Positions 1,267-5,190 of a DNA stretch of 52,922 nucleotides are shown in pieces. The stretch covers positions 1 through 52,922 of the forward strand of contig CAIOPO010000100.1 of NCBI GenBank assembly GCA_903860195.1, in the 5' to 3' direction. The notes beneath the pieces are model-generated. The model saw only the letters and a list, made by a program, of their open reading frames with translations. It made no database searches and was not told where the DNA came from. This DNA is from an uncultured Opitutia bacterium. Lineage in GTDB: Bacteria; Verrucomicrobiota; Verrucomicrobiia; Opitutales; UBA953. Numbering within the stretch: position 1 is the first letter of the stretch; each line of letters starts with the position of its first letter. The position numbers were made by a program, and so were the translations under genes.

Positions 1267-2376
1267 CTACTTGGCCCAGCCGGCGAGCACCGCGCCGCGG
1301 TAGAAGAGGTAGCCGAGCGTCAGAGTGATCGGAATCGTCAGCACCCAGGCCCAGACGATCCTTCCGACCAGGCCCCATTTCACCGCGTCGAAACGCTTGG
1401 TCGCGCCCACGCCGAGGATCGAGGTGGAGATGACGTGGGTCGTGGAGAGCGGGATGCCCATCTCCGAAGCGCCGTGGATCGTGATGGCCGCGGCCGTCTC
1501 CGCCGCGAAGCCGTGCACCGGCTGCAGCTTCACCATCTTGTGGCCCATCGTGCGGATGATCTTCCAGCCGCCGGCGGCCGTGCCCAGCGCCATCGTGATC
1601 GCGCAAATGACGATCACCCAGTAGGGCGCGTGGTCGACCACGCCCTTGGCGTTGAGTTCGGGCTTCATGAAGCCCGCCCATTCGGGGTGGCCCTCGAAGG
1701 CGCCCGACGTCGTCCCGACGATCAGCGCGAAGGTGATGATGCCCACCGTCTTCTGCGCGTCATTGGAGCCGTGGGAGAAGCCCATCATGCCGGCGGAGAC
1801 CAGCTGCAGCCGTCCGAAGCGGCGCTGGACCACGCTCGGCCGGGCCATCAGACGCACGATGAGGGCCGTCAGCAGCGCCATGAAGACCACCCCCAGCGCG
1901 AAGCCGACGAACGGCGAGATGAACATCGGCTTGATGAGCTTGGGCCAGAGTCCGGCGGTCTTGCCGCCTTCCGAGGCGGACCAGAGCAGCCTGCCCCATT
2001 CGAGGTGCGTCTGCCCGAGCACGCCGCCGCAGAGTCCGCCGATCAGCGCGTGGGAGGAGCTGGACGGGATGCCGAACCACCAGGTGACGAGGTTCCAGAC
2101 GATCCCGCCGAGGAGTCCGCAGGCGATGGCCAGCTGCTGGACCTGGAAGCCGCCCGAGACGTCGATGTAGCCGGAGTAGATGGTCTTGGCGACCGCGGTG
2201 CCCCAGAAGGCCCCGACGAGGTTGGTCAGCGCCGCGAGGAGGATCGCCTGCCGCGGGGTGAGCACCCGCGTGGAGACCACCGTGGCGATGGCGTTGGCGG
2301 CGTCGTGGAAGCCGTTGATGTATTCGAACACCAGGGCGACCACGATGACCGCCAGCATCAGGACGAAGGGGTCCAT
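1267..2376 (-). CDS. pit: Inorganic phosphate transporter, PiT family
   Basis: FEYINGFHDAANAIATVVSTRVL and GFSHGSNDAQKTVGII motifs, multi-TM protein. Confidence 0.95.
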   Translation of the reverse strand: MDPFVLMLAVIVVALVFEYINGFHDAANAIATVVSTRVLTPRQAILLAALTNLVGAFWGTAVAKTIYSGYIDVSGGFQVQQLAIACGLLGGIVWNLVTWWFGIPSSSSHALIGGLCGGVLGQTHLEWGRLLWSASEGGKTAGLWPKLIKPMFISPFVGFALGVVFMALLTALIVRLMARPSVVQRRFGRLQLVSAGMMGFSHGSNDAQKTVGIITFALIVGTTSGAFEGHPEWAGFMKPELNAKGVVDHAPYWVIVICAITMALGTAAGGWKIIRTMGHKMVKLQPVHGFAAETAAAITIHGASEMGIPLSTTHVISTSILGVGATKRFDAVKWGLVGRIVWAWVLTIPITLTLGYLFYRGAVLAGWAK

Positions 2377-2394: not shown

Positions 2395-3036
2395 TCAGGC
2401 GTACTTGAGGGCGATCTGGAACACGACCTTGCCCGCGTCGCGGCAGTGGTCGATGGCGCGCTCCAGCAGCTCGTAGATGTCCTTGAGCACCACGACCTCC
2501 TTGGCGTCCACGTTGCCTTGGTAGAGGTCGCGCAGCAGCCCGACCATCAGCCGGTCCGCGTCGCCCTCGATGGTCTGGAGCGTCTCGTAATGGTCCTGGA
2601 TCTCCTCGACGTTGGAGAGCTTGCGGAGCTTGCGGACGAGGGCGGCCGTGACTTCGGTGGCCTGCTCGAGCATGCGCACCTGCTTGTCCACGATGTCGGT
2701 GGAGAACTGCGAAGGGCAGATCGCCAGGCGTTCACCGACCTTCTCGCAGGTCTTGGGGATCTTGTAGAGCGCGTTGGCGAGGGCCTCGATGTCCTCGCGT
2801 TCCAGCGGGGTCACGAAGGTCCGGCAGAGCTCCTGGGTGATGCTGAGGCCGATGCGCTTGTCGTTGCGTCGCGCGACGACCAGTTCGGTGAAGCTGCGGT
2901 CGAAGTCCGGCTTGCCGAGCTGCGAGCAGAGGCGCGAAACCGCCTTGGCGCTCTTGGCCGCCTCGTCGGCGCTGGCCTCCAGCAGCTCGTAGAACTTCTC
3001 ATCTTTGCCCAGGGCCTTTTTCAGGAAGTCTTTCAT
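2395..3036 (-). CDS. DUF47/PhoU-like phosphate transport accessory protein
   Basis: MKDFLKKALGKDEKFYELLEASADEAAKSAKAV...; first gene of the pit operon; start trimmed from 3099 to the ATG at 3036. Confidence 0.88.
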   Translation of the reverse strand: MKDFLKKALGKDEKFYELLEASADEAAKSAKAVSRLCSQLGKPDFDRSFTELVVARRNDKRIGLSITQELCRTFVTPLEREDIEALANALYKIPKTCEKVGERLAICPSQFSTDIVDKQVRMLEQATEVTAALVRKLRKLSNVEEIQDHYETLQTIEGDADRLMVGLLRDLYQGNVDAKEVVVLKDIYELLERAIDHCRDAGKVVFQIALKYA

Positions 3037-3100
3037 GGTATGGGGTGCGATTGGCGGATGTTTTGAACGGCGTGTCGGAAGGGGGGCGCAATACCGCATC

Positions 3101-3158
3101 GTAACACCCCCGTAACAAACGACACATCATAAGGTTACGATTGTTACAATCGTGTTAC
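3101..3158. promoter_or_regulatory. Candidate Pho-box-like double operator (TGTTAC-N5-TGTTAC on each strand)
   Basis: GTAACA at 3101-3106 and 3112-3117 (= TGTTAC-N5-TGTTAC on minus strand); TGTTAC at 3142-3147 and 3153-3158 on plus strand; an extra GGTTAC at 3133. Confidence 0.6.
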
Positions 3159-3235: not shown

Positions 3236-4090
3236 ATGGTGAACACAGAACGGCCGGTCCCTCCTCACAAGGTCCTGTTCCGCACCCTGGTGCTGTCGGA
3301 CCTCCACCTCGGCACGAAAGACTCGCAGGCGCGTGAGCTCCTCGAGGTGCTCCGCGGCGTGCGCTGCGAGAAGCTGATCCTCAACGGCGACATCATCGAC
3401 CTCTGGTCGTTGCGCCGGAAGAACCATTGGAACCCGGCCCATACGGCCGTCGTCCGCCGCATCATGAAGATGGCGGAGAAGGACGGCACCAAGGTGGTGT
3501 ACCTCCGCGGCAATCACGACGACTTCCTCCGGCGTCTCATCCCCATCGCCCTCGACCGCATCGAGCTGGCCGAAGAGCACGTGCACGTGGGCGCGGACGG
3601 CCGCCGCTACCTGTGCATCCACGGGGACGCGTTCGACGCGGTGACCGCCAAGATGCGCTGGCTGGCGGTCCTCGGCGACGTCAGCTACCAGCTCCTGCTG
3701 GACATCAACCGCTTCTACAACCGCTGGCGCGCCTGGCGGGGCAAGGAGTACTTCTCGCTGTCCCAGGCCATCAAGGGGCGGGTCAAGGAGGCCGTCAGCT
3801 TCATCTCCCGCTTCGAGGAGCACATCCAGACCCTGGCGGCGCGGCGCGGCTGCGAGGGCGTGATGTGCGGCCACATCCACAAGGCGGAGGACCGCATGAT
3901 CGGCGGAGTCCGCTACCTGAACTCCGGCGACTGGGTCGAGTCCCTCACCGCGGTGGTGGAGGAGACGGATGGCCGCCTCCGCGTCGTCGGACGTGACGAG
4001 CTGCGCGCGCGCATCGCCGAGCGGCGGGCGCTGGCCGCGGCCGCCGAAGCCGCCCCGGTCCGCGCCGCGGAGACGGCGCCGGCCCGATGA
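3236..4090 (+). CDS. Calcineurin-like metallophosphoesterase, PlcP/LpxH-type (candidate phosphate-starvation phospholipase C)
   Basis: LSDLHLGTK, NGDIIDLW, GNHDDFLRR, IHGDAFD, CGHIHKAE, NSGDWVES metallophosphatase motifs. Confidence 0.88.
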   Translation: MVNTERPVPPHKVLFRTLVLSDLHLGTKDSQARELLEVLRGVRCEKLILNGDIIDLWSLRRKNHWNPAHTAVVRRIMKMAEKDGTKVVYLRGNHDDFLRRLIPIALDRIELAEEHVHVGADGRRYLCIHGDAFDAVTAKMRWLAVLGDVSYQLLLDINRFYNRWRAWRGKEYFSLSQAIKGRVKEAVSFISRFEEHIQTLAARRGCEGVMCGHIHKAEDRMIGGVRYLNSGDWVESLTAVVEETDGRLRVVGRDELRARIAERRALAAAAEAAPVRAAETAPAR

Positions 4091-5190
4091 GCCGGGTCCC
4101 GGTGCTCTCCGCCGGCTTCGGCGAAGGGCACAACGCCGCCGCGCGCGCCGTGGCCGAAGCCCTGGGCGCGCATCCCGCGGGGTCGGTCGTCGCCGAAGTG
4201 CACGACCTGTTCATCGAGGCCTACGGACCCGACCGCGCGCGGCGGCAGCGCGACGGCTACATCCGGGTCGCCAACCGTTTCCCCCGGCTGTGGGGATGCC
4301 TCTACGCCGGCCTCGACCGGATGCCGCTCGTGCGCGCCTCGCTGCCCTTCGTCCGGCCGGTGGAGCGCCGGCTCAACGCGCTGCTGGACGAGGCCTCGCC
4401 CCGGGTCGTGGTCTCGGCCTATCCGCTTTACAATTACATGATGGCCCGCCGGTGGCGCGTCGACGACCCCGCCCGGCCGAGGCTGATCACGGTCGTGACG
4501 GACTCGATCTCGGTGAACCGTGCCTGGCATCGCGCCCATTCGGACTGGTACGTCACCCCGAACCGCGCCACCGCCGACGTGATGGTGCGCCAAGGCGTGC
4601 CCGCGGAAAAAGTGCTTCCGTACGGTTTCCCGGTGCCCGCGCGTCTCGCCGGGCGTTCGACCGCCACGCCGGGCGGCCGCCCGCGGGTCCTTCTCATGCT
4701 CAATCCCGGACGGCGTGACGCCGTCGCGATGGCCGCCGCCCTCGCCTCGCTCGACATCGCCCTCACGGTCACGGTCGGCCGTGACGCCGGCTTCAAGGAG
4801 GCGGTGGAGCGCGCGGTCGGCGGCCGGGCCGAGGTGCTCGGCTGGACCGACCGCATTCCGGAACTGATGCTCTCGAGCCACCTGGTGGTGAGCAAGGCCG
4901 GCGGGGCGACGACGCACGAATGCGTGGCGGCCGGCGTGCCGATGGTCATCACGCAGGTCATCCCCGGCCAGGAGGCGGGCAACGCGCGGCTGATCACCGC
5001 CCACGGTGCCGGCGCGCTAGGCCTCGACCCCGTCCGGGCGCGTGACGCGGTGGCGGCGGCCTTCGCGGACGACTGGCGCGTCTGGCGCGGCTGGAAGTCG
5101 GCGGTGGAGCGGCTGGGCGACGCGGGCGGGGCGGCCCGGGTGGCCGACCTGGTCGTCAGGGAGCTGGTCGCGGCGGGCGTCGGCGCCTAA
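4087..5190 (+). CDS. Glycosyltransferase of the MGDG synthase/UgtP (GT28) type
   Basis: LSAGFGEGHNAAARAVAEAL N-terminus and SKAGGATTHECVAAGVPMVITQVIPGQEAGNARLI C-terminal motif; ATGA overlap with the upstream gene. Confidence 0.88.
   Translation: MSRVPVLSAGFGEGHNAAARAVAEALGAHPAGSVVAEVHDLFIEAYGPDRARRQRDGYIRVANRFPRLWGCLYAGLDRMPLVRASLPFVRPVERRLNALLDEASPRVVVSAYPLYNYMMARRWRVDDPARPRLITVVTDSISVNRAWHRAHSDWYVTPNRATADVMVRQGVPAEKVLPYGFPVPARLAGRSTATPGGRPRVLLMLNPGRRDAVAMAAALASLDIALTVTVGRDAGFKEAVERAVGGRAEVLGWTDRIPELMLSSHLVVSKAGGATTHECVAAGVPMVITQVIPGQEAGNARLITAHGAGALGLDPVRARDAVAAAFADDWRVWRGWKSAVERLGDAGGAARVADLVVRELVAAGVGA

Follow-up and report, generated by a model that had tools for sequence, protein, structure and literature searches.

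Genes and half-sites between DUF47-pit and plcP

The window, that is, the whole stretch of DNA analysed (52.9 kb, G+C 70%), stems from an Opitutae lineage represented mostly by metagenome assemblies. Two divergent gene pairs flank the intergenic region considered here:

1267..2376, minus strand: Pit-type phosphate transporter gene (PF01384, 315 bits)
2395..3036, minus strand: DUF47 (PhoU_div) gene (PF01865); probable start at 3036, where similarity to relatives begins
3236..4090, plus strand: plcP-like calcineurin-type phosphoesterase gene (PF12850 and PF00149)
4087..5190, plus strand: GT28 glycolipid synthase-like gene of the MGDG-synthase type (PF06925 and PF04101), overlapping the stop of the plcP-like gene

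The gene initially annotated as 'phoU-like' is DUF47 (PhoU_div) according to PF01865. Equally, the initial 'metallophosphoesterase' can be specified as a PlcP-like candidate phospholipase C, behind which a glycolipid synthase gene is located. A calcineurin-type phosphoesterase beside a lipid glycosyltransferase gene, the arrangement by which PlcP is recognized, is found at 3236-4090, and from their sequences the genes at 3236-5190 look like a lipid-remodelling pair of PlcP phospholipase C and GT28 glycolipid synthase. LpxH (UDP-2,3-diacylglucosamine diphosphatase) was rejected as an identity for gene 3236-4090 with 23 bits for a cut-off of 190 and 36 bits for one of 134; database relatives at approximately 49% identity are nonetheless annotated as UDP-2,3-diacylglucosamine diphosphatase. 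The GT28 gene scores below the cut-off of the diglucosyl diacylglycerol synthase model. PlcP lipid-remodelling clusters with predicted Pho boxes are known from marine heterotrophs, and PlcP has been noted in Verrucomicrobia (PMC4796936). Common to the marine clusters and the present locus are plcP beside a lipid glycosyltransferase gene and the predicted Pho box (PMC4796936), whereas the GT28 type of the glycosyltransferase and the divergence of the cluster from DUF47-pit across a mirrored box are different here.

Read directly from the window, the minus strand at 3117-3101 is TGTTACGGGGGTGTTAC and the plus strand at 3142-3158 is TGTTACAATCGTGTTAC, and the two TGTTAC-N5-TGTTAC repeats described initially are indeed present. 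These tandem repeats are exact and far from chance: they are the sole matches in the window even with up to two mismatches (shuffles average 0.18), four of the seven TGTTAC occurrences on both strands of the window fall within this 58-bp stretch, and the number of tandem pairs expected from the hexamer frequency is 0.0005. The 2.1-Mb genome has only three exact matches, two of them at 3101-3158; the third precedes a PF07396 phosphate-selective (OprP-type) porin gene, where a second pair, GTGACG-N5-GTGACA, is located further on in the same 11-bp phase. A scan of 56 genomes of the genus yielded 24 exact matches to TGTYAC-N5-TGTYAC and none to the reversed control pattern. Since many of the genus matches outside the locus lie within coding sequence, this strict pattern was abandoned as a gauge of regulon breadth and a profile was used instead.

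On the coding strand the half-site reads CGTMACA, of which TGTTAC is the reverse. The directions given in the initial annotation, by which the left repeat pointed at DUF47-pit and the right repeat at the phosphoesterase gene, have to be inverted: the coding strands of pstS and porin genes carry GTMACA and not TGTTAC, therefore the left arm reads toward plcP and the right arm toward DUF47-pit, each arm pointing at the far gene. The slip is readily made because GTWAC is palindromic. Together with two weaker half-sites absent from the initial annotation, GACACA at 3121-3126 and GGTTAC at 3133-3138, the repeats form a mirror of six half-sites with its centre at 3129.5, in which the third half-site of each box stands 9 bp off as compared with 11 bp between the first two:

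3101..3126, plus strand: left-arm box, a probable PHO box reading toward plcP, with fixed spacing in 26 relatives
3101-3106, 3112-3117 and 3121-3126, plus strand: left-arm half-sites H1 (GTAACA), H2 (GTAACA) and H3 (GACACA)
3133..3158, minus strand: right-arm box, a probable PHO box reading toward DUF47-pit, with fixed spacing in 26 relatives
3158-3153, 3147-3142 and 3138-3133, minus strand: right-arm half-sites H6 (GTAACA), H5 (GTAACA) and H4 (GTAACC)
3136..3141, plus strand: candidate -10 element TACGAT for plcP, 9 bp past H3
3126..3131, minus strand: candidate -10 element TATGAT for DUF47-pit, 10 bp past H5

Both promoter assignments are candidates, proposed for plcP by analogy with the GTAACA-N9-(-10) arrangement at pstS and porin genes, and both elements are weaker than those at pstS. 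In relatives, the plcP candidate is mostly TACAAT or TACGAT, while in the DUF47-pit candidate the final TGAT is invariant in 26 relatives and the first two letters vary. An outward promoter using an invariant TTGC to the left of the left arm was dismissed, with neither a fitting pstS-type -10 element nor a clear -35/-10 pair. All 26 relatives share GCAA at 3088-3091, 10 bp to the left of the left arm.

Occurrence of the box in the genus and the order

In 26 of 30 loci of the genus the region aligns gap-free over approximately 78 bp. Relative to the fifth half-site, the half-sites start at -41, -30, -21, -9, 0 and +11, positions identical in 26 species, with mirror steps of 11, 9, 12, 9 and 11 between them. 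The initial annotation had made its reading dependent on conservation of the repeats in orthologous intergenic regions and on enrichment of the motif upstream of phosphate genes; the former is evident from the six half-sites found gap-free in 26 species, and the 11-bp period described there holds for H1-H2 and H5-H6 in 26 relatives. Among the aligned relatives GTAACA at -30 is invariant, while GTAACA, GTCACA and GACACA alternate as outer half-sites. In the genomes G040 and G050, where the plcP pair is located elsewhere without DUF47, the box is retained and reads toward plcP. In the genera g2 and g4, where no adjacent plcP was found, no such element was observed before DUF47.

Upstream of pstS in approximately 20 relatives, a box of the type GACACG-N5-GTAACA-N9-GATGAT is present on the coding strand, and the same element, for example GCCACG-N5-GTAACA-N9-GAGGAT, precedes OprP-type porin genes. 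A sequence-only profile, R1, was built from 28 of these pstS and porin upstream boxes with the plcP/DUF47 locus deliberately excluded. In the window, its top match is the right arm (3151-3136, minus strand; E 0.032, runner-up 1.9, the E-values being rough); a profile built without the locus thus ranks the right arm first, which strongly supports the Pho-box reading put forward initially. All 101 matches with E<0.2 in 56 genomes of the genus are situated at pstS, porin or plcP genes, with classes assigned from gene positions, doubtful ones checked by gene content or synteny and two contig-end matches (G072 pstS, G049 porin) classified from synteny alone. The enrichment upstream of phosphate genes is thereby found, and the same element stands before pstS and other phosphate genes as is characteristic of a PHO box. 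Sixteen of the genus matches are at plcP, 13 of them in the DUF47/plcP interval, and both arms are detected on opposite strands in three genomes (G067, G042 and G047). Matches around the pstC start were dropped as a probable coding coincidence. Upstream of the porin gene of the source genome (L001 1502-1551, G000:C48), the box near the -10 element of most relatives has been lost, and four half-sites occur further upstream instead (GTAACA-11-GTAACA-22-GTGACG-11-GTGACA).

Extending the search to 194 genomes of the Opitutales gave matches in 26. Boxes are located before PstS-type genes (L315, L317, L319, L330, L333), before PF07396 or PF16930 porin genes (L316, L322, L323, L324), before two further porin homologues identified by tblastn (L326, L328) and before an ABC-transporter ATPase gene resembling pstB (L334); the gene behind the L327 box is without a Pfam match, and no evident phosphate gene was found at L320, L321, L325, L329, L331, L332 and L335. 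Half-site matches across the order form sharp peaks at -11 and -22, of which the -11 peak is partly built into profile R1, while the -22 peak is independent since this position lies outside the profile. Direct half-sites at 11 bp, the hallmark of a PHO box, are consequently found in H1-H2 and H5-H6 of 26 relatives as well as in these order-wide peaks. The interpretation as a Pho box thus stands, but the restriction to a small lineage suggested initially does not, with the element occurring across the order.

Nine bp after GTAACA, the order-wide boxes carry TATTAT, TAGGAT, CATGAT, CATAGT, GATGGT and similar sequences. In E. coli, phoA and pstS display GTCAC-N10-TATAGT and GTCAC-N10-TATTTT, which agree in strand and register with the GTAAC-A-N9 of the Opitutales. 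A -10 element at fixed spacing with the box in place of a -35 element is accordingly found at pstS and porin genes, while 3101-3158 has the weaker candidates. Shared with the E. coli PHO box of phoA and pstS are therefore the direct half-sites at 11 bp, a coding-strand GTNAC core, the site before pstS and a distance of 10 bp between GTNAC and the -10 element. On the other hand, the half-site is CGTMACA here and CTGTCAT there, and two facing boxes, with an additional half-site 9 bp off, are packed into the 58 bp of the present locus.

Proposed phosphate control and its alternatives

The stretch 3101-3158 very probably represents two facing, mirror-image PHO boxes bound by the PhoB-like regulator of the source genome when phosphate is scarce. 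As this is the same PHO box as at the main phosphate-starvation genes of many Opitutales, both the DUF47-pit and the plcP operons are probably under phosphate-starvation control. Upon low phosphate, the putative PhoB would occupy both arms, each box being a run of CGTMACA half-sites, of which two show the same 11-bp distance as at pstS and the third follows at 9 bp. PhoB bound head to tail on the left box would recruit RNA polymerase to transcribe plcP and the gene for the glycolipid synthase. Their predicted products would swap phospholipids for sugar lipids and free phosphate. PhoB on the right box would control the divergent DUF47-pit uptake operon, either activating or repressing it. The relocated plcP that keeps its box in G040 and G050 supports this explanation; the third half-site at 9 and not 11 bp, the weaker -10 candidates and the lack of a clear copy upstream of phoB speak against it.

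The sign of control at pit gives rise to a variant of the same explanation, differing solely in this respect. PhoB on the shared mirror might activate the pair of plcP and glycolipid synthase genes and simultaneously repress DUF47-pit by covering its promoter, such that recycling of lipid phosphate would coincide with a shutdown of low-affinity uptake. The possibility is a serious one, towards which the balance nevertheless does not tip. Interleaved facing boxes would be expected to hinder polymerase from using both directions together; yet the right arm is shaped like the pstS boxes and has, in the source genome, a good -10 sequence (TATGAT) 10 bp on, a layout that looks activating. A comparison is offered by the orfA-pit operon of S. 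meliloti, the orfA gene of which is of the DUF47 type and beside which, to our knowledge, no divergent plcP has been described. It likewise contains pit and has a PHO box near its beginning, just before the putative translation start, and it is repressed on phosphate starvation (PMC3131613). At the present locus, DUF47-pit could be activated or repressed.

Alternatively, the 58-bp mirror might contain two complete PHO promoters with half-sites and -10 elements interleaved, so that polymerase could use only one direction at a time and PhoB would act as an either/or switch. This arrangement is unlikely; if true, the switch would decide between phosphate import (DUF47-pit) and phosphate sparing by lipid exchange (plcP).

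With respect to the regulator, direct repeats of 11 bp are usual for the OmpR/PhoB family as a whole. The PhoB-like regulator of the source genome is the best match to TIGR02154, with 234 bits under the cut-off of 296, and one of six PhoB-model matches, the other five being regulators of the broad family; in view of this score and these relatives, a different regulator could bind. That another OmpR/PhoB-family response regulator answering to a different signal occupies the boxes is nonetheless improbable: the targets pstS, phosphate-type porin, pit and plcP are phosphate-starvation genes, and the best PhoB match adjoins a PstS-like gene, located on the opposite strand. The PhoB-like gene (G000:C130) is followed side by side by a PAS/HisKA/HATPase kinase gene. 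The recognition helix of the encoded regulator, RTVDtHvRRLR, is similar to the one seen for E. coli PhoB in 1GXP.

Upstream of phoB, no clear copy of the box was found. A conserved element, CGTAACC...TTGACACCTAA(A)TCTGGCGC, is present there (L179, relatives L180-L199); it matches the box poorly, is a different or degenerate element, and may be an autoregulatory site.

Hardly credible is the competing reading of the initial annotation, by which a dimeric repressor operates at a dyad at 3137-3153 and the tandem repeats are incidental: the perfect 7+7 dyad ACGATTG-TTA-CAATCGT exists in the source genome but is kept in 3 of 26 aligned relatives while half-sites and spacing persist, and the reading was rejected for this lack of conservation.

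A working consensus and additional sites

PHO boxes vary by species in sequence and arrangement (PMC4415409). In the open-licence literature, neither an earlier description of a PHO box in Verrucomicrobiota nor a published PHO-box consensus for Opitutales was found. A mirrored PHO box as such is an ordinary kind of switch; what is new is a consensus for the whole order, along with the mirrored arrangement of two boxes. The working consensus for Opitutales, CGNCACR-N4-CGTAACA-N9-(-10), covers uncultured lake members and lets phosphate-starvation genes be predicted from metagenome-assembled genomes. Furthermore, the probable phosphate control of a putative lipid-remodelling gene pair in freshwater Verrucomicrobiota bears on life in phosphate-poor lakes, and the mirrored layout provides a compact, naturally occurring test case for the way in which a directional regulator acts on two operons that diverge.

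A few sites were observed beyond the genes discussed so far. The sequence TGTCACCGAGATGTTAC occurs upstream of a DHH-family inorganic pyrophosphatase-like gene in two relatives without an identified DUF47 gene (L071 426-442 and L073 1501-1517; G028 and G040), a possible further phosphate-regulated gene. In the source genome, the one-mismatch site TGTTACGGACCTGTGAC (L004 1501-1517, G000:C10) between a DUF1501 gene and the start of an RND-efflux-like gene is possibly due to chance. Weak boxes at L305 ~1443 (G027) and L080 1148-1164 (G059) precede similar small secreted proteins (MKHILPI.../MKQILPI...).
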